A stretch of DNA of 64,000 bases from Comamonadaceae bacterium (lineage in GTDB: Bacteria; Pseudomonadota; Gammaproteobacteria; Burkholderiales; Burkholderiaceae_C), in NCBI GenBank assembly GCA_021299875.1, contig JAJTEW010000002.1, positions 248,001 through 312,000 of the forward strand. The letters are read 5' to 3'. This document shows, one piece after another, positions 2,113-63,741 of this stretch (position 1 is the first letter of the stretch; the number at the start of each line of letters is the position of its first letter). Under the pieces are notes generated by a model that saw only the letters and a program-made list of their open reading frames with translations, did not search any database and was not told where the DNA came from. The position numbers and the translations under genes were made by a program.

Positions 2113-2193
2113 GGGGGGTCCAAAAAAGCCAAAGTGTTCGAAAAAGCGGGTGTTCGCCCGATATTTGCCCCATATTCGCGCAATGGGGGGAGC

Positions 2194-2227
2194 TTGACAA
2201 ACGGTGAATGCTCATGAAAACATGAGC
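2194..2227 (+). promoter_or_regulatory. Putative promoter/operator of the LysR-type gene
   Basis: A consensus TTGACA hexamer (2194-2199) is followed by a perfect inverted repeat GCTCATG-AAAA-CATGAGC (2210-2227), which ends 24 bases before the chosen start at 2252. The palindrome covers the expected -10 region, so it could be an autoregulatory operator. A second AT-rich dyad (ATATTTGCCCCATAT) lies at about 2161-2175 between the divergent genes. No functional evidence is available beyond position and symmetry. Confidence 0.4.
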
Positions 2228-2251
2228 TCAACTCATCTGAAAATCAATTGC

Positions 2252-3154
2252 ATGAGAAATCTTCCACCTTTGGCCCGTTTGCGCACCTTCGAGGCGGCCG
2301 CCCGGCTGCAGAGTTTTGCCTTGGCCGCTCAAGAGCTGCACCTGACGCCTTCGGCCATCAGCCACCAGATTCGCGACTTGGAAATGTACTTTGGGCGGGC
2401 CCTCTTTGAGCGCCGCCATCGTCAGGTGCAGACCACACGGGAGGGGCAGCGCTTGTTTGAGAGCCTGGACCGTTTGTTTGGCGCGCTCGAAGCGAGCTGC
2501 GCCGAGGTGCAGTTGCCCACGCAGGACCAGGTGCTGGCGGTGCACTGTGCGCCCAGTCTGGCGCTCAAGTGGCTGGGCCCGCGCTTACCCAGCTTCATGG
2601 CCTTGCACCCCACGGTCAACATCCGCCTGACCACGGGGGCAGAGCCGCTGGATTTGGGGGCGCAGCGCGAGGTCGATGTCACGATCTCCTATGGCCCGCC
2701 ACGCCACAGCGCCGGGCTGGATGTTTTCGCTTTGGGCGACGAGCACATCGCGCCTCTGGTGGCCCCGCACCTGCTGCAACACGATGAGCCGCCCGATCAG
2801 TTGCTGGCCCGTTGGCCTTTGATTGACTCGCAGCTCAGCCCCGTGGGCTGGCCACAGTGGTTTGCCTATCATGACCTGATGATGCCAGTGCGTCCCCGGC
2901 CGTCTTTTGACCGTGCGGCCATGGCGATTGCGGCGGCGGTCGATGGCTTGGGGGTGGCGCTGGAGAGCACGCGCCTGGCCGCCCGCGAGATCGAGCGTGG
3001 CGAGCTGGTGGTGTTGGGTGCAGAGCGCTGGCCCGCCTTGGTGCGCCCGGTGCATTTCATGAGCGTGCGCCTTAACGAGCGCTCACGCAGTGCGACAGCG
3101 GCCTTTGTGCAGTGGGTGCAGGCGCAGGCGGGGCTGGTCGACTCAGCGCCGTGA
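2252..3154 (+). CDS. LysR-type transcriptional regulator (GcvA-like)
   Basis: The 300-residue protein starts at MRNLPPLARLRTFEAAARL. Upstream in-frame starts at 2204 and 2222 would add residues not typical of the family. The N-terminal winged helix-turn-helix (AARLQSFALAAQELHLTPSAISHQIRDLE, about residues 13-42) is canonical for GcvA/AmpR-like LTTRs, which activate or repress neighbouring divergent genes with a small-molecule co-inducer bound in the C-terminal domain. The aldolase gene is divergent and is the likely target. The 3' end overlaps the convergent EamA gene by 12 bases. Confidence 0.88.
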   Translation: MRNLPPLARLRTFEAAARLQSFALAAQELHLTPSAISHQIRDLEMYFGRALFERRHRQVQTTREGQRLFESLDRLFGALEASCAEVQLPTQDQVLAVHCAPSLALKWLGPRLPSFMALHPTVNIRLTTGAEPLDLGAQREVDVTISYGPPRHSAGLDVFALGDEHIAPLVAPHLLQHDEPPDQLLARWPLIDSQLSPVGWPQWFAYHDLMMPVRPRPSFDRAAMAIAAAVDGLGVALESTRLAAREIERGELVVLGAERWPALVRPVHFMSVRLNERSRSATAAFVQWVQAQAGLVDSAP

Positions 3155-4042
3155 AGACACCCAAATCCCACCAATGATCAGCGCAAACGCCAGCGCATGA
3201 AACAGCTGCGGCAACTCGCCCAAAAAGGCGGCTGAGAAGATGGCTGCAAAGAGTGGCGTGAGGTTGGCAAAAAAGCCAGCGACTGCCGGGCCGGCCTGCT
3301 GGACGCCCAGACCCCAGCAGCGGTAGGCCAGCACGGCCGGGCCCACGGCCACAAAGGCCAGCGCCGCGATCAGTGGCCAGCCCCAGGTGATGTGCGCATC
3401 GGTCAGGCCCCATTCCATGCCCGCAAACAGCCCCGACCAGGCCAGCCCGAACACCACTTGCGCCAGCAAAAACGCCGCCCAGTCCTTGCGGATGGCTTCA
3501 GGTTCGTCTTTGCGCGTCAGCATCCAGCTGTACCAAGACCAGCAGGCCGTGGCCAACAAGATGAACAGGTCACCCACCACCAAACGCACGGCCATGAGCT
3601 GTGTCCAGTCGCCCCGCGAGAGCACCACCAGCACGCCCACGATCGACAAAATCGCTCCATAGACTTGGGCCCGCCGCACCGGCGCCTGAAAAAACAGCGC
3701 GCCAATGCCCAGCATCCACACCGGACCACTGGCCGCCACCAGGGTCACATTCAGCGGGGTCGAGGTTTGCAGCGCCAGGTATTGCAACGCGTTGTAGCAA
3801 CCCACGCCCAGCAAACTGAGCAAGGCAAAACGCCGCCAGTGGGCCCACAGGCCGCTGCTGCGCCGCAGCACCCAGGCCGCCAAGGGCAGCAAAATCACGA
3901 AGGCCACGGCCCAGCGCAAAAAGTTGAGGGTGATCGGGGGCACCAAGTCGGTGACCAAGCGGCCTACCACGGCATTACCCGCCCACAGCAAAGGGGGCAC
4001 CGTCAGCAGCAAGGCAGTGATCGGAGAGAGTTTTTGAGACAT
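3143..4042 (-). CDS. EamA/DMT-family transporter
   Basis: A 299-residue integral membrane protein with ten predicted hydrophobic helices arranged as two EamA repeats. The first repeat shows the typical PPLLWAGNAVVGRL and LNFLRW segments, and the second shows GLGVQQAGPAVAGFFANLTPLFAAIFSAAFLGE. The start at MSQKLSPITAL (4042) is preferred; the longer frame to 4123 adds a polar stretch not expected before helix 1. This is an inner-membrane drug/metabolite transporter of unknown substrate. It converges with the LysR gene (12-base overlap) and is divergent from the quinone oxidoreductase gene. Confidence 0.85.
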   Translation of the reverse strand: MSQKLSPITALLLTVPPLLWAGNAVVGRLVTDLVPPITLNFLRWAVAFVILLPLAAWVLRRSSGLWAHWRRFALLSLLGVGCYNALQYLALQTSTPLNVTLVAASGPVWMLGIGALFFQAPVRRAQVYGAILSIVGVLVVLSRGDWTQLMAVRLVVGDLFILLATACWSWYSWMLTRKDEPEAIRKDWAAFLLAQVVFGLAWSGLFAGMEWGLTDAHITWGWPLIAALAFVAVGPAVLAYRCWGLGVQQAGPAVAGFFANLTPLFAAIFSAAFLGELPQLFHALAFALIIGGIWVSSRR

Positions 4043-4165
4043 GCGGCACTTTAGCGATATTCGGGTTTTCCCGCTGTCGCCCAGCTGTCCCCACCCCGGA
4101 CTCCGGCATGAGATTCGTGGCAAAGTCTGGCTTCATTTGATTTGACCATTCACAGGAGAAATGCC

Positions 4166-5149
4166 ATGAGCCTTGCAGTCCAGATCGACCAAAACGGTGG
4201 TCCCGAAGTCATGAAGTTGGTCGATGTCACGGTGGGTGAGCCCGGCCCCGGTGAGATCCGCATCCGCCACAAGGCCATTGGCCTGAATTTCATCGACGTG
4301 TACCAGCGCGGTGGTTTGTACCCACTGCCCATGCCTCTGAAGCTGGGCATGGAAGGCTCGGGCGTGGTCGAGGCCGTGGGCGAAGGCGTCACGCACCTGA
4401 AGGTGGGCGACCGCGCAGCCTATGCCAGCCAGCCGCCCGGCAGCTACTGCGAAGTGCGGGTGATGCCTGCCAAGTGCGTGTGCAAGCTGCCCGATGCGAT
4501 TTCGTTCGAGACTGGCGCAGCCATGATGCTCAAGGGCCTGACCGCGCAATACCTGCTCAAGCGCACTTTGCCCCAAGGTGGCTTGAAGGCCGGTGACTTT
4601 GTGTTGTTCCATGCTGCCGCTGGTGGCGTGGGCCTGATCGCTTGCCAGTGGGCCAAGGCCCTGGGCTTGCGCCTGATTGGCACTGCAGGCAGCGATGCCA
4701 AGTGCGCCTTGGCGCTGGCCAATGGCGCGGAGTTTTGTATCAACTACGCCACCGATGATTTCCAGGCCAAGGTCAAAGAGATCACCGGTGGCAAGGGCGT
4801 CAAAGTGGTCTACGACTCGGTGGGCAAAGACACTTGGGACAAGTCGCTCGACTGCCTGGCCCCCTTCGGTCTGATGGCCAGTTTTGGCAATGCCTCAGGC
4901 CCTGTGGCCCCGTTTGCGCCTGGCATCCTTGGACCCAAGGGGTCGATTTACGTGACGCGCCAGACGCTGTTCAGCCACATCACCACCCGCGAAAACACCC
5001 AAGAGATGGCCGATGATTTGTTCGAAGCAGTGACCAGTGGCAAGGTGAAGATCCACATCGAGCAGACCTTCCCCTTGGCAAAAATTCAGGACGCGCACAT
5101 CGCCCTGGAAGCCCGCAAGACCACGGGTTGCACCATCATCACTTTGTGA
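4166..5149 (+). CDS. qor: NAD(P)H:quinone oxidoreductase (zeta-crystallin type)
   Basis: A 327-residue zinc-free medium-chain dehydrogenase. It shows the quinone-reductase signature near residues 50-75 (KLGMEGSGVVEAVGEGV) and the nucleotide-binding AAAGGVGLIACQWAKALG motif near 150. It likely reduces quinones or enones with NADPH in the cytoplasm. The ATG at 4166 has an AGGAG site 7 bases upstream; a TTG at 4142 would only add eight residues. The gene ends in a strong bidirectional terminator shared with the convergent aminotransferase gene. Confidence 0.88.
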   Translation: MSLAVQIDQNGGPEVMKLVDVTVGEPGPGEIRIRHKAIGLNFIDVYQRGGLYPLPMPLKLGMEGSGVVEAVGEGVTHLKVGDRAAYASQPPGSYCEVRVMPAKCVCKLPDAISFETGAAMMLKGLTAQYLLKRTLPQGGLKAGDFVLFHAAAGGVGLIACQWAKALGLRLIGTAGSDAKCALALANGAEFCINYATDDFQAKVKEITGGKGVKVVYDSVGKDTWDKSLDCLAPFGLMASFGNASGPVAPFAPGILGPKGSIYVTRQTLFSHITTRENTQEMADDLFEAVTSGKVKIHIEQTFPLAKIQDAHIALEARKTTGCTIITL

Positions 5150-58493: not shown

Positions 58494-59498
58494 ATGCTAG
58501 ATGATCGTGCCAAGTTATTGCTCAAAGCGCTGGTGGAACGCTATATCGCGGACGGCCAACCTGTGGGCTCTCGCACGCTCTCCAAAGCCTCCGGCCTGGA
58601 TTTGTCGCCCGCCACCATCCGCAACGTGATGTCCGACCTGGAAGAGCTGGGCCTGATCGCCAGCCCCCACACCTCGGCCGGGCGCATTCCCACCAGCCGG
58701 GGCTACCGTTTGTTTGTCGACACCATGCTCACGGTGCAGCGTGGTGGCCTGGAAACGCCCGCCTTGGTCCCCGATCAGCCGCAAAAGGTGATCGCCAGCG
58801 CGGCCAACCTGCTGTCCAGCCTGTCGCATTTTGTGGGTGTGGTCATGACGCCACGCCGGCCCTCGGTCTTTCGGCACATCGAGTTTTTGCGCCTTTCCGA
58901 GCGGCGTTTGTTGGTCATCATTGTCTCGCCCGAAGGCGATGTGCAAAACCGCATCTTGTTCACCGAGACCGATTATTCGCAAAGCCAGCTGATCGAAACC
59001 TCCAACTTTCTCAACACCCACTACGCCGGCATGGCCATCGAGCAGGTGCGCAGCCGGGTGCAGCAAGAGCTGGTCAGCCTGCAAAGCGAAATCGCCACGC
59101 TCATGCAAGCGGCAGTGCAAGTCAGCACCGAAGCCCTGGCCGAGGACCAAAACGAAGTGGTCATTGCCGGGGAGCGCAACCTGTTGTCTGTGAGCGACTT
59201 TTCCAGTGACATGAGCCACTTGCGCCGGGCGTTTGAATTGTTTGAGCAAAAAACCCAGCTCATGCGCTTGCTCGATGTGTCCAGCCAGGCAGAAGGCGTG
59301 CGCATTTACATCGGCGGCGAAAGCCAGATCGTGCCCATGCAAGAGTTGTCGGTGGTCAGTTCGCCTTATGAGGTGGACGGCCAGATTGTCGGCACCTTGG
59401 GCGTCATTGGCCCCACCCGCATGCCCTACGACCGGATGATCCAGATTGTCAACATCACCTCGCGCTTGGTCAGCAACGCGCTCAGCCAGTCCAAGTAA
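58494..59498 (+). CDS. hrcA: Heat-inducible transcription repressor HrcA
   Basis: A 334-residue repressor of groE/dnaK heat-shock operons through CIRCE operators. It begins [75 protein letters not shown] with the winged helix. The C-terminal GAF-like domain has [46 protein letters not shown]. No CIRCE sequence was seen in its short promoter. It is followed by the tRNA region. Confidence 0.95.
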
Positions 59499-59513
59499 GC
59501 CCCTATGGCCCAC

Positions 59514-59519
59514 TACAAT
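59514..59519 (+). promoter_or_regulatory. -10 element of the tRNA remnant
   Basis: TACAAT lies 12 bases before the tRNA-like 5' fragment, a normal spacing for a stable-RNA promoter. It suggests that an intact tRNA gene once followed. Confidence 0.5.
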
Positions 59520-59531
59520 CACAGCTTCGAT

Positions 59532-59551
59532 GGGGGTGTTAGCTCAGTTGG
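59532..59551 (+). pseudogene. Truncated tRNA 5' fragment (tRNA-Lys-like)
   Basis: GGGGGTGTTAGCTCAGTTGG matches the acceptor 5' strand and D-arm of a tRNA; the GTTAGCTCAGTTGG part is most like tRNA-Lys. The D-loop, anticodon and T arms do not follow. The next 80 bases contain an A/T-rich stretch and a GGGGGCCAAAAAGGGGC segment. It looks like a tRNA gene broken by deletion or by an integration event. Confidence 0.6.
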
Positions 59552-59593
59552 CAAATATGGCTTCCACACTTTGCTGAAAATTTAAGCAGTATT

Positions 59594-59622
59594 TTGGGGG
59601 CCAAAAAGGGGCAAAGTACAAT
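59594..59622 (+). promoter_or_regulatory. Promoter of the intron-containing tRNA-Ile
   Basis: TTGGGG (59594-59599) and TACAAT (59617-59622) are spaced by 17 bases, and the tRNA begins 9 bases after the -10. The -10 is strong and the -35 weak. Confidence 0.55.
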
Positions 59623-59631
59623 CAGATATTC

Positions 59632-59914
59632 GGGCCTATAGCTCAGTTGGTTAGAGCAGAGGACTCATATTTTTCAAATGTGCCTTACGCGTGGAAACTG
59701 CGTAAGGGATGGTGTCAAAGTCGGCGAAAGCTAAGTGCAGCGATGCATATGCCAACGCCGAGCCAAGCTGGGTGAGCAATCACCTTGAAGGTGTAGAGAC
59801 TTGACGGCACCCACCTACGGCGCAAGCTACGGTGAAGGCAAAGTCCAGGGAGTAGTGAAAGCTACACAAACCGGAATCCTTTGGTCCCAGGTTCAAGTCC
59901 TGGTGGGCCCACCA
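59632..59914 (+). tRNA. tRNA-Ile (anticodon CAT) interrupted by a group I intron
   Basis: The exons 59632-59668 (37 nt, GGGCCTATAGCTCAGTTGG ... GACTCAT) and 59875-59914 (40 nt, AATCCTTTGGTCCC ... GGGCCCACCA) join into a 77-nt tRNA. All arms pair: acceptor GGGCCTA/TGGGCCC, anticodon stem GAGGA/TCCTT with loop CTCATAA, T arm CCAGG/CCTGG. CAT with these identity features is the Ile2 tRNA whose C34 becomes lysidine to read AUA; elongator Met is the alternative. The intron lies directly after the anticodon. A terminator follows. Confidence 0.93.
59669..59874 (+). ncRNA. Group I self-splicing intron (IC3-like) in tRNA-Ile(CAU)
   Basis: A 206-nt intron without an ORF. P1 forms between exon CAT plus ATTT (59666-59672) and AAATGTG (59676-59682), with the U-G wobble at the 5' splice site. 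P2 is CCTTACGC/GCGTAAGG (59683-59690, 59700-59707). P5 is CGGCG/CGCCG (59722-59726, 59756-59760). A GGTGA-GCAA-TCACC hairpin (59771-59784) fits P6a. P7 is GACTT/AAGTC (59798-59802, 59841-59845). P9 is GTAGT-GAAA-GCTAC (59852-59865). The intron ends in a terminal G. Segments such as GGGATGGTGTCAAA and GACGGCACCCACC match the Azoarcus tRNA-Ile intron as I recall it, which has the same host tRNA and nearly the same length. Confidence 0.94.
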
Positions 59915-59920
59915 CTTGAT

Positions 59921-59957
59921 AAACCCCCGTCAGAAATGTCGGGGGTTTTCATTTTTC
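59921..59957 (+). terminator. Terminator after tRNA-Ile
   Basis: AACCCCCG pairs with CGGGGGTT around TCAGAAATGT, followed by TTCATTTTT. Confidence 0.88.
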
Positions 59958-60139: not shown

Positions 60140-60958
60140 TCAAGGCGCATGACGCGCCCATTGATGACTGCGCAGTGCCTTTTCTATGGTGCTGGTGGCT
60201 TGTTCCAGTCCACTGAGCAGCAGCGCGATGCGTGCTGGCGTCATCCGACTGTTCAAACCTGCAACGGTCACGGCACCGAAAACCTGCCCCAGGCTGTCCT
60301 TGAAAGATTTTCCGAAGGCCGTGACACCTGGTGTGATGCGGTTTTTGATCACCGCATAGCCTTGCTGCTGGGCTTGCGCCATGGATTCTCGCAACTCGGC
60401 CAGTGGAAATCGCCATTCGGTTTCGATCGACGGCATCACCACCTTCAGAATTTCTTCAATTTCGTCGGCATGCATTCCAGCCAAGATGGCCAATCCTCCC
60501 GCCCCCAGACCCAAGGGTCTGCGGCTGCCCATTTGCAGTGTCACCACGCGCAATGTTCCAGGGCCTTGCTGAAAATCAATGCAAACCGCTTCATGTCCGC
60601 TGCGTTGAACGAGGTAAACGGTTTCGGCTGAACTCACAGCCAACCTCTGCATGGCCGGCTTGCACAATTCTCGGACGTCAAACTGCTGCGCCGCCACCAA
60701 ACCCAACTCGTAAGACAAGGGCCCAAGAACGTAGGCTTGGCGATCATCCAACTGCATGACAAAGCGCAACTTGATCATTTGTGCAAGCAGACGGTGAACG
60801 GTGCTGTTGGGCAAGCCAGTTCGCTGGGCCAAGGAGGTCAATGGCGCACCACGCCGTCCCGCAGTGGCCAGCAAACGAAGCAAGGCCACACCTCTGGGCA
60901 AGGGACCTTGATGTGTGAGATCGACTGAGGAGGAGAGCAAAGAAGCTTCTATTTTCAT
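60140..60958 (-). CDS. IclR-family transcriptional regulator
   Basis: A 272-residue regulator. The N-terminal winged helix (GVALLRLLATAGRRGAPLTSLAQRTGLPNSTVHRLLAQMIKLRFVMQLDDRQAYVLGPLSYELG) and the C-terminal effector domain (VYLVQRSGHEAVCIDFQQGPGTLRV, RPLGLGAGGLAILAGM, NRITPGVTAFGKSFKDSLGQVFGAVTVAGL) are typical of IclR. It is divergent from the FAD monooxygenase gene and probably controls the catabolic genes to its right in response to an aromatic or carboxylate ligand. The gap 59958-60139 on its 3' side shows nothing recognisable. Confidence 0.92.
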   Translation of the reverse strand: MKIEASLLSSSVDLTHQGPLPRGVALLRLLATAGRRGAPLTSLAQRTGLPNSTVHRLLAQMIKLRFVMQLDDRQAYVLGPLSYELGLVAAQQFDVRELCKPAMQRLAVSSAETVYLVQRSGHEAVCIDFQQGPGTLRVVTLQMGSRRPLGLGAGGLAILAGMHADEIEEILKVVMPSIETEWRFPLAELRESMAQAQQQGYAVIKNRITPGVTAFGKSFKDSLGQVFGAVTVAGLNSRMTPARIALLLSGLEQATSTIEKALRSHQWARHAP

Positions 60959-61069
60959 TGAGTGGAAATTATGTCACTCCGCCCAATTGTCCTGCCAACA
61001 ATCATTGGCGTTCAGTCCGATGGCCGCCATGGCCACCTGAATCAGCCCCATCACCCACTGACCAACGAT

Positions 61070-62722
61070 ATGCAGACCCAAAACACAAGATTGAATGATG
61101 TGGATGTCCTGATTTCAGGCTATGGTCCGACGGGCGCGACACTGGCTAATTTGATGGGCAAGAGAGGCTACCGCGTGCTGGTCATCGATCAAGAGTCCGC
61201 CATTTACGACAAGCCTCGGGCCATCACCGCTGACCAAGAGGTTTTGCGAGTCTTGCAAGAATTTGGCGTTGCAGACGAAGTGGCCGCGGCCAGCACACCC
61301 CATCCCGGCACAGACTATGTGGGCTTGCAGGGCCAAGTCATCAAGCGCTTTTACCCTGCCCCACCGCCCAATGCACTCGGTTGGGAGCCCAGCTGGATGT
61401 TTGTTCAACCCGACTTGGAAGCCGTGCTGCGCAAGGCGGTTGACCGACAGCCCCATGTGCGCAGCCTCTTGGCCCATCGGTTGATCGGATTTGAGCAAGA
61501 CCCACACACCGTCACGGCCCAGATCCAGCGCTTGTCAGATGGCGCACCACTGACTGTGCGAGCACGTTATGCGATTGCCGCAGATGGCGCCAGCAGCATC
61601 GTGCGCAAACAACTGGCGGCCCCGGTGGAGGACTTGGCCTTCGATGAATGGTGGTTGGTGGTGGACGCATGGATCAGTGGTCCGATCCAATTACCAGAGC
61701 GCTGCGTGCAATACTGCCGCCCCTCACGCCCTGGGACATACATCGTGGGGCCGGGAACGCTGCGCCGTTGGGAAATCAAGTTGCTGCCCCACGAAGACCC
61801 CGCTCATTTCCGCGACAGCCATGAGGCCGTGTGGCGCATATTGGGTGAGTTCACGGACACCCGTTCTCTGACGCACTGCCGCACTGCGGTTTACCGTTTC
61901 CATGCCTTGGTTGTCCATGATTGGCGCCATGGGCGGGTCTTTCTGGCTGGCGATGCGGCGCACCAGATGCCTCCTTTTTTGGGGCAAGGTCTTTGCGCGG
62001 GCATCCGGGACGCCAGCAACTTGGCTTGGAAACTGGACGCTGTGATGCGCGGCCTATCGGGCGATCATTTGCTCGACTCGTACACGGTTGAGCGGAAAAA
62101 ACATGTCCGCACTGTTGTGGGGCACGCCAAATCGTTTGGGCTGATCATCGGTGAATTGGACGTGAACAAAGCCCGCGAACGCGACCGCATCTTGGAACAG
62201 GATCTGAGGCTAGGCCGAGCGGAGACGATTCGGCAACGGTTTATCCCAGGACTGGAATCAGGTTTGTTGGCCCACAAGTCCAATGGCGAATTACAAACCG
62301 GAGCGGGTGAATTGTTCATCCAGCCCTGGGTTCGGCAGGGGCAAGGCGATTGGCAACGGTTGGATGACTTGACCGGTCCGCGCTTTGTGGTCTTGGCCTC
62401 ATCTCTAGACACATTGAGCGCATTGGATCCAGAATCACTGGGCATCATTCAGGCGATCGATGGCCGGTGTGTACTTGTGCAAGCTGGCACAGCTTCCGGC
62501 CACGAATCACGAGACGCACACGCTACGCCCATCTTTGAAGAGCGCGACGGCCTGCTTACGCACTGGTTAGCGGCTTACCATGCGGTGGCAGTGATTGCAC
62601 GCCCCGACAAATATGTCTATGGCATCGCACAAAATGCGCATCATTTGCGGCAATTGCTCCTAGAGCTCCGGGCCGCCTTGATCGAACCGGCGGTGCAGGG
62701 CGATCGGGATGAACACGGATGA
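61070..62722 (+). CDS. FAD-dependent aromatic monooxygenase (MhpA-like)
   Basis: About 550 residues from MQTQNTRLNDVDVLISGYGPTG. ATG 60971 and GTG 60962 would add a non-homologous leader. The GxGxxG motif ISGYGPTGATLANLMGKRGYRVLVIDQE binds the FAD ADP moiety; DG-type motif YAIAADGASSIVRKQL and the GDAAHQMPPFLGQGLCAGIRDASNLAWKL motif complete the class A flavin hydroxylase set. MhpA-type relatives hydroxylate 3-(3-hydroxyphenyl)propionate and related phenols. The C-terminal thioredoxin-like domain of larger homologues is reduced. It is controlled probably by the divergent IclR regulator. Confidence 0.87.
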   Translation: MQTQNTRLNDVDVLISGYGPTGATLANLMGKRGYRVLVIDQESAIYDKPRAITADQEVLRVLQEFGVADEVAAASTPHPGTDYVGLQGQVIKRFYPAPPPNALGWEPSWMFVQPDLEAVLRKAVDRQPHVRSLLAHRLIGFEQDPHTVTAQIQRLSDGAPLTVRARYAIAADGASSIVRKQLAAPVEDLAFDEWWLVVDAWISGPIQLPERCVQYCRPSRPGTYIVGPGTLRRWEIKLLPHEDPAHFRDSHEAVWRILGEFTDTRSLTHCRTAVYRFHALVVHDWRHGRVFLAGDAAHQMPPFLGQGLCAGIRDASNLAWKLDAVMRGLSGDHLLDSYTVERKKHVRTVVGHAKSFGLIIGELDVNKARERDRILEQDLRLGRAETIRQRFIPGLESGLLAHKSNGELQTGAGELFIQPWVRQGQGDWQRLDDLTGPRFVVLASSLDTLSALDPESLGIIQAIDGRCVLVQAGTASGHESRDAHATPIFEERDGLLTHWLAAYHAVAVIARPDKYVYGIAQNAHHLRQLLLELRAALIEPAVQGDRDEHG

Positions 62723-62781: not shown

Positions 62782-63741
62782 TCACTGTTGCGGAATATTG
62801 GCTTCCTGCACAACTTTTTTCCATTTGCCAATTTGCGTTTGCACATATTGCTTCATCTCCAAGCCACTGGCGGATGGGCTGGCCAGGCCACCTGTCCCTT
62901 CGAGCTGCTTGACGACGGCAGGATCTGCCAAGACTTTGAGCGTGGCGGCATGGATCTTTTGTGCCACTGGGGCGGGCAAGCCTTTGGGACCCGCAAGCGC
63001 TGTCCAAGAGTTGACATCAAAGTCCTTGACCGTTTCACGCAAGGGAACAACGCCAGGCAAAAATGGAGAGGGATCCACCGAGGTGACCCCTAAAGCGCGC
63101 AGTTTTCCGCTGTCGATCTGCCCTTTGGTCACGGTCACGGAATCGAACATGAGGTCAACCCTGCGAGTGAGCACATCTTGCAGCGGTGCGGCACCCCCTC
63201 GGTATGGAATGTGGTTCATTTGAACGCCCGCCAGCGACTGAAACAGCTCACCCGACAAGTGCTGGGTGGAGCCAACACCTACAGAGCTGTAACTCACGGT
63301 CCCCGGCTGGGATTTGGCAACGCGCACCACATCGCCAACGGTCTTGAACGGACTGTCGCTGGCAGTTGCGAGAACAAAGGGGAAGCGCGTCACCATCGAC
63401 AACCAATCAAAATCTTCCACGGGGTCAAAGCTTTGTGATTTGTACATGGCGGCCGATACCGCATGCCCTCCTGTGAGCAAAATCAAGGTGTAGCCATCTG
63501 GACGAGCTCGCGCAACGGCCGCACTGGCCAAGTTGCCGCCAGCCCCAGTCCTGGCCTCGACAACCACCGGCTGTCCCAATTCACGGGACAAACCCTGGGC
63601 CATGATGCGTGCAATCGTGTCGGCATTTCCCCCTGCGGCAAAGCCTTGTACGAGGGTGATGGGTTTGTCGGGAAAAGCTTGCGCCACAGCCAGTGGCATG
63701 CCGATCAGGGTCGAGAAACAAAAAAGGGCCGTGCGAATCAT
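62782..63741 (-). CDS. Bug-type tripartite tricarboxylate transporter binding protein
   Basis: A 319-residue exported binding protein. Signal peptide TALFCFSTLIGMPLAVAQA is followed by the family blocks ITLVQGFAAGGNADTIARIMAQGL, VVVEARTGAGGNLASAAVARARPDGYTLIL, YSSVGVGSTQHLSGELF and HIPYRGGAAPLQDVLTRRVD. It likely captures an aromatic or carboxylic substrate for the adjacent catabolic genes. It shares the minus strand with the VOC gene upstream, 35 bases away, so the two are probably co-transcribed. It converges with the monooxygenase gene. Confidence 0.9.
   Translation of the reverse strand: MIRTALFCFSTLIGMPLAVAQAFPDKPITLVQGFAAGGNADTIARIMAQGLSRELGQPVVVEARTGAGGNLASAAVARARPDGYTLILLTGGHAVSAAMYKSQSFDPVEDFDWLSMVTRFPFVLATASDSPFKTVGDVVRVAKSQPGTVSYSSVGVGSTQHLSGELFQSLAGVQMNHIPYRGGAAPLQDVLTRRVDLMFDSVTVTKGQIDSGKLRALGVTSVDPSPFLPGVVPLRETVKDFDVNSWTALAGPKGLPAPVAQKIHAATLKVLADPAVVKQLEGTGGLASPSASGLEMKQYVQTQIGKWKKVVQEANIPQQ

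Follow-up and report, generated by a model that had tools for sequence, protein, structure and literature searches.

The tRNA-Ile(CAU) gene at positions 59632-59914 of the 64,000-nucleotide stretch analyzed here (the window; contig C9, 248001-312000) is interrupted after its anticodon by a 206-nt group I intron. With a probability of roughly 70%, we read this gene as the replacement tRNA of an integrative element and its intron as a device that hides the spare from the element's own integrase. The intron, the layout of spare and relic, the integration core, the element ends, the empty sites, the integrase of relatives and the near-universal disguise of the spares can all be read from the DNA of this freshwater bacterium and its relatives, and hiding from the element's own integrase would be the reason why the intron is retained.

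The intron-bearing gene and its group I intron

The window belongs to a 3.13-Mb genome assembled in 22 contigs (99.94% complete). The joined exons form a 77-nt tRNA with anticodon CAT, and ARAGORN, with introns permitted, called tRNA(cat) i(38,206) at the locus; the gene was absent from default ARAGORN scans and from Rfam scans at gathering thresholds. The original prediction, of two exons that join into an intact tRNA split by 206 nt directly after CAT, was confirmed in its coordinates, length and splice sites (Table 1).

Table 1. Features at and around the intron-bearing tRNA-Ile(CAU) gene in window coordinates, with the loci of a second intron class found in relatives.
Feature	Position	Strand	Basis
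hrcA, host gene preceding the native tRNA-Ile(CAU) in relatives	58494..59498	+	PF01628, E 4.8e-65; same order in relatives
TACAAT, -10-like box of the broken native tRNA gene	59514..59519	+	sequence
Relic, first 20 nt of the native tRNA-Ile	59532..59551	+	position of the intact tRNA-Ile start in relatives
Left-end element leader (arm-like repeat and promoter), truncated on the left	59560..59631	+	similarity to element leaders
TACAAT, -10-like box of the spare tRNA	59617..59622	+	sequence
Spare tRNA-Ile(CAU), exon 1, 3' end CAU	59632..59668	+	ARAGORN with introns, sequence
Group I intron, 206 nt, between U36 and A37, ends in G	59669..59874	+	RF00028, ARAGORN, pairing, alignment
P7 5' strand region (GAGACTTGACGG)	59796..59807	+	pairing, sequence
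P7 3' strand region (AAAGTCCAGG)	59840..59849	+	pairing, sequence
P9 stem with GAAA loop	59852..59865	+	pairing, sequence
Spare tRNA-Ile(CAU), exon 2, CCA included	59875..59914	+	ARAGORN with introns, sequence
Terminator-like hairpin and T run	59922..59949	+	sequence
IclR-type regulator between the native tRNA halves, probable cargo	60140..60958	-	PF01614, E 1.6e-19
FAD-binding monooxygenase-like protein, probable cargo	60962..62722	+	PF01494, E 2.7e-62
TctC-type solute receptor, probable cargo	62782..63741	-	PF03401, E 1.9e-67
Group I introns between U33 and C34 in relatives (locus coordinates)	L137:1600-1851; L140, L141, L143, L144, L145, L147, L087 and others		

DNA searches of the genome for tRNA-Ile(CAU) returned the window locus and its 3' remnant. 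Besides the matches listed, one search gave two further ones, each weaker than E 1.5e-8; as a yardstick, relatives with an intronless tRNA-Ile(CAU) reach about 5e-9 in that search. A second tRNA-Ile(CAU) was not found in the genome by these searches or by reading tRNA anticodons, which were read in 30 loci covering 37 tRNA hits, with seven hits lacking a locus and measuring 82-90 nt. Two other tRNAs of the genome carry a CAT anticodon (L002 and L026), and by their sequence we take them to be an elongator and an initiator Met tRNA. What had been proposed as the only copy in the window is thereby the only one found genome-wide. Since the copy is the sole one found, AUA decoding should depend on splicing, as had also been suggested, and we infer that the intron is spliced in vivo and that the gene is essential.

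The covariance model RF00028 matched positions 59657-59867 over model positions 1-253 with E 5.3e-9 and a score of 40.9 bits that falls short of the curated cutoff (50), and at E 0.001 this was its single match in the whole genome. The model thus picks out the group I core that had been predicted. More specifically, P1, P2-P9 and the GAAA loop are pairable on the window sequence, and the U-G pair of P1 at the 5' splice site (read from sequence), the P3-P9 core and the 3' terminal G are all present; the earlier pairing by hand of P1 with its U-G wobble, P2, P5, P7, P9 with the GAAA loop and the terminal G is in agreement with this. Matches to the Rfam families RT-6, Plastid-ycf2 and mascRNA were weak, fell below their own cutoffs and overlapped the tRNA or the intron, and were set aside.

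To assess covariation, we compared 32 aligned introns of relatives with the window structure, and 93.8% of 1642 cells were paired. Changes on both sides occurred in 23 of the 54 pairs. Double changes filled 225 cells against 77 in shuffles, a value that none of 500 shuffles reached, while the count of changed pairs was equalled in 47 of 500 shuffles and that of further pair types in 324 of 500. P8a pairs in 58% of cells only. At the final pair of P7, 19 rows have A-U and 13 have U-A, which is the switch behind the compensatory P7 change named in the original prediction.

The Azoarcus group I intron sits in tRNA-Ile(CAU). Like it, the window intron is a small group I intron in tRNA-Ile; on the window side, and for the window gene alone, the gene that hosts it is apparently an element-borne replacement. 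The suspected close relation to the Azoarcus ribozyme is borne out by 149 identical bases among 188 aligned (79.3%), relative to the sequence printed in PMC8890501 and with the seven randomised positions of that ribozyme skipped.

The broken native gene and its flanks

In hrcA-linked relatives, the native tRNA-Ile lies directly 3' of hrcA. The corresponding stretch of the window, 59470-59552, resembles the native hrcA-tRNA spacers of all 12 relatives tested (71-89% identical) and ends in a 5' relic of the native gene, which starts 100 nt upstream of the intron-bearing gene. The native 3' half, likewise a decayed remnant with part of an intron still attached, lies at approximately C9 313809-313916, 6.2 kb downstream and 1.8 kb past the window end. 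The sequence that follows this 3' relic aligns in register with the flank of an intact tRNA-Ile in two relatives, at 84.9% over 1185 nt in G335 and 82.8% over 528 nt in G331, with the alignment starting at the first base given, which is the second base after the tRNA.

The leader between the 5' relic and the intron-bearing gene is 92-97% identical over 66-72 nt to the element left ends of G315, G327, G334, G372, G377 and G347. Its arm part (59560-59589) had no match upstream of tRNA-Ile in any of the 50 genomes tested out of 51 that lack a relic. Five genomes without a relic (L159, L160, L141, L144 and L147) share 14-22 nt of the leader's promoter, so this promoter piece alone is not element-specific; the sharing suggests a gene of this kind as the source of both the spare and its promoter. 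Between the native halves, further genes for glyoxalase-family, NIPSNAP and FAH-family proteins accompany the probable cargo of Table 1, and the set has a catabolic look. The element of the window genome is decayed, as is its junction in the window, and no match to the integrase of the element family was found in this genome at E 1e-20.

Intron-bearing genes directly after hrcA do occur in relatives, which would speak for an ordinary native tRNA-Ile with an Azoarcus-like intron, preceded by a tRNA-like fragment by chance. We consider this highly improbable, as the gene has an element-type leader and an acceptor stem that differs from those of the hrcA-linked native genes, and is enclosed by 5' and 3' native relics with matching flanks. 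The flanks as assembled and the leader contradict a native intron-bearing tRNA. Judged from this context, the window gene is an element-borne replacement and not the native tRNA-Ile. The original prediction was right about the Azoarcus-like group I intron, the P7 change and the sole copy, and had overlooked the replacement origin.

Integrative elements and a second intron class in relatives

In relatives, the left junction reads AGAGGA, CTCATAA and element sequence, and the right junction reads element sequence, CTCATAA and TCCTTTGG. The stretch that the junctions have in common with the intact tRNA extends for 7 to 13 nt from CTCATAA on and spans the 7-nt anticodon loop. Inward of the left end, at a distance of 187-212 nt for elements of the genus and 185-485 nt elsewhere, lies a whole tRNA-Ile(CAU) with its own promoter-like box, and in the better preserved elements a tyrosine integrase follows this spare. 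Complete elements measure 17,745, 17,717, 10,114 and 5,709 bp, and joining their flanks yields 77-nt tRNA-Ile(CAU) genes.

The integrases beside the spares are 452-477 aa long. PF00589 was detected above its cutoff in two of them (L068 and L226) and PHROG 216 matches that of L067; the integrase of L150, the same locus as L098, has no Pfam match and is 94% identical to that of L067 over 251 aa. Relatives of the integrase were found in 11 of 399 family genomes (E 1e-20), in 13 of 399 order genomes (E 1e-30) and at 11 loci in the named genome collection, and several elements of the genus have no integrase within 4.5 kb after the spare. Several other members of the integrase family lie beside a single intronless tRNA-Lys, -Phe or -Met, with no relic seen. 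A second, short tyrosine recombinase of 190-207 aa also occurs within elements (L226:5863-6486, L068:17111-17683 and L150:8236-8811).

Between G305 and G306, whose elements occupy different tRNA alleles, the leftmost 3,544 nt of the element show 94.2% identity. Among the cargo, G305 has a type III restriction system and G260 a fragment resembling type IIG. In G189, two elements stand in tandem with a relic-type junction between them, and neither of the two intron-bearing spares is disrupted.

The elements of relatives combine a short core in a tRNA gene, a target gene left unrestored, a whole tRNA of the same isotype and a tyrosine integrase, as in tRNA-dependent integration. An attP that restores the tRNA was not seen, in that the left junctions soon enter element sequence after CTCATAA. 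This combination resembles the tRNA-dependent lysogeny of actinophages (Guerrero-Bustamante and Hatfull 2024, PMC10865867), in which the element carries a whole spare tRNA of the same isotype, a tyrosine integrase uses a short core in a tRNA gene, the tRNA stays unrestored, and tRNA-Ile2(CAT) is among the targets (Table 2 of that paper). In contrast to the actinophages, the carriers here are, as far as seen, integrative elements of Burkholderiales and not phages, the core lies in the anticodon loop, and the spare stands beside the left end, in most cases with its attachment site interrupted by a group I intron. Islander islands (PMC4383910) likewise use a tyrosine integrase and a tRNA target, with the anticodon loop as one class of crossover site, but their classical attP bears a tRNA fragment that rebuilds the gene. 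Since Islander, as described there, rejects candidates below 2 kb, a relic separated from its spare by 190 nt would not be scored as an island.

The genus also has elements that seem to be of the classical tRNA-restoring type. Arrays of tRNA-Ile 3' halves spaced by about 1-9 kb (L159, L160, L161 and L215) represent tandem classical elements at the same anticodon-loop site. At L163 (G367, 2156-4440), an intron-bearing tRNA-Ile without a relic accompanies an integrase-like stretch (65% over 60 aa), with an intronless right junction 2 kb further on; here a classical element may have delivered the intron together with the 3' half.

A second class of group I introns in tRNA-Ile(CAU) lies between U33 and C34. 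The nine that were read are 245-307 nt long and end in G, and once each is removed, a tRNA-Ile(CAU) of 77 or 79 nt remains. The only one run on Rfam, that of L137, matched RF00028 with E 5.4e-6 and 31 bits, below the cutoff. ARAGORN labels these genes tRNA-Leu(taa), -Ser, -Val or others; the tRNA-Leu(taa) identity was rejected, as splicing before the anticodon restores tRNA-Ile(CAU) in nine of nine. Introns of 226-232 nt in tRNA-Leu(taa) calls of other genera of the family (L048, L051, L052, L057, L059 and L060) are probably true tRNA-Leu(UAA) group I introns. The 33/34 class, like the 36/37 lineage, evidently travels with integrative elements. One leader type is found ahead of either intron class, and several left-end types exist. 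In some 33/34 spares (L184, L087, L232 and L259), the tRNA body is CTAGCTCATGCTTGG, as in the Oxalobacteraceae tRNA-Ile of L088, which points to capture of these bodies from another family. Furthermore, 33/34 introns occur in the tRNA-Ile of other Burkholderiales families, mostly with no relic visible in the flanks examined.

Disguised spares and the proposed mask

In the mechanism that we propose, a tyrosine integrase would insert the element into the anticodon loop of the host tRNA-Ile(CAU) via a CTCATAA-containing core and thereby destroy the gene, and the cell would survive through the whole spare tRNA-Ile(CAU) that the element brings next to its left end, under a promoter of its own. A whole copy of the target gene would itself be an attachment site for the element's own integrase, near attP when the element is free and near attL in the chromosome. 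The group I intron would split this site in the DNA and splice out of the RNA, leaving a normal tRNA and a hidden spare. Where spares have divergent anticodon stems, as four do, the site could be masked by other means.

We tallied relics and spares across the genus. Of its 90 genomes, 16 show both a clear relic and a resolved spare, 4 have a relic at a contig end, 3 have decayed relics and 51 have none; the remaining 16, including G338 and G346, gave fragments only or no match and were excluded. Among the clear-relic spares, all 16 carry an intron, ten at 36/37 and six at 33/34, with G372, G377 and G347 scored as intron-bearing though their contigs end inside the intron. The decayed relics accompany an intron in the window genome and in G373, whose relic is weak (leader match over 58 nt, arm part missing), and an intronless gene in G352. 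Genomes without a relic have an intron in 13 cases and none in 38, and re-examination of 50 of these 51 revealed no decayed relic or arm repeat upstream (G343, whose tRNA is cut by the contig start, was left out). With decayed relics included, an intron accompanies a relic in 18 of 19 genomes versus 13 of 51 without one (Fisher p 1.3e-7, genomes treated as independent of kinship).

Outside the genus, 14 more spares have an intron, four are intronless with a divergent anticodon stem (L091, G427, G662 and G721; relic and spare compared at five stem bases) and one is undisguised (G841), a part of the count that is not an even sample, as its loci came mostly from intron or integrase queries. Altogether, the 35 resolved relic-plus-spare loci comprise 30 with an intron at one of the two anticodon-loop positions, four with a divergent stem and one without disguise. 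In this count, G271, with a small deletion in its relic, was added by hand, and G609 and G841 were added as well. The undisguised case (L274, reverse strand 1489-1760) shows a relic and leader, following an rpoD-like gene as judged by eye, and then an intronless tRNA-Ile(CAU); no exon-2 copy was found within 15 kb downstream, and no printed ORF looked integrase-like by eye.

In a tree of the 36/37 introns, the window intron falls in a clade of 12 rows labelled as spares, with support of 100/100. The labels in this clade rest on decayed relics for the window and G373, on the integrase for L085, whose contig begins too close to show a relic, and on the tandem junction for G189b. The spare label needs at least four changes on the starred branches of the tree. 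Together with the leader type common to both intron classes, these changes indicate that disguised spares probably arose more than once.

The introns might instead home or reverse-splice into any tRNA-Ile(CAU) and have been captured by elements from their hosts, with no benefit to the element. The 13 genomes of the genus with an intron and no relic are in line with such hitch-hiking, as are the 33/34 introns of other families in flanks mostly lacking a visible relic. We nevertheless regard it as unlikely: clear-relic spares of the genus are intron-bearing without exception while most tRNAs without a relic (38 of 51) are intronless, two intron positions and the independently divergent stems of four spares reach the same end, and the repeated label changes on the intron tree also speak against it.

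The intron does not act as an absolute shield. At L157 (G352, approximately 1712 and 3500-3780), a classical element sits inside an intron-bearing spare, the working gene is now intronless and the intron is stranded at the right junction, which rules out absolute protection. Intron sequence is also present at the right junctions of G184 and of the window genome, which makes it probable that the genes targeted there were intron-bearing too. In G524, the 5' half into which a second element inserted resembles the spare of the first element, and this may be a further case of spare entry.

These entries bear on the idea of Randau and Soll, summarised for archaea in PMC3293823, PMC4390854 and PMC4090602, that an intron is retained to guard the host tRNA gene from integrating elements generally. 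Right junctions with a CTCAT core lead into an intronless exon 2 in 26 cases and into an intron in three, as general protection would have it, among loci that were chosen for their exon-2 copy. Yet an intron-bearing spare was entered in G352 and probably also in G184 and the window genome, which leaves general host protection unsupported as an absolute rule, and the 38 intronless genes among the 51 without a relic point the same way. We therefore hold general host protection to be quite improbable, and immunity of the element against its own integrase seems the better reading of the sequences.

An archaeal case comes close to this self-immunity: Sugahara et al. 2012 (PMC3293823) proposed that a tRNA intron arrives with an integrating element, with a possible benefit to the element. 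There the intron lies in the rebuilt tRNA, whereas here a group I intron lies in a separate whole spare; direct evidence tying disrupted tRNA genes to integration was, according to that paper, lacking. Group I introns of bacterial tRNAs are described in PMC3984707 and PMC4033280, in whose accessible sections a link to element-borne spares does not appear, and the accessible text of PMC10865867 does not discuss how a phage tRNA escapes the integrase. Among the open-access matches listed, with subscription literature mostly outside the scope, we recognized no group I intron joined to an element-borne spare tRNA. The principle of a whole spare is thus known from actinophages, and we found no spare with its attachment site interrupted by a self-splicing intron among those matches.

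As a whole, we lean toward the broader view that group I introns are working parts of these elements, a reversible mask that gives immunity to the element's own integrase and that was recruited repeatedly at two positions, and that a large part of the distribution of tRNA-Ile introns across Burkholderiales may follow from this. If true, bacterial tRNA introns would have a selectable function at the level of DNA, and their location in the anticodon loop would be explained as the site of integrase action. The finding points to tRNA-dependent integration beyond actinophages and shows a route by which a bacterium can come to rely on the tRNA of a mobile element. Furthermore, the idea of a link between disrupted tRNA genes and integration can now be assayed with one integrase and two types of spare, intron-bearing and intronless.
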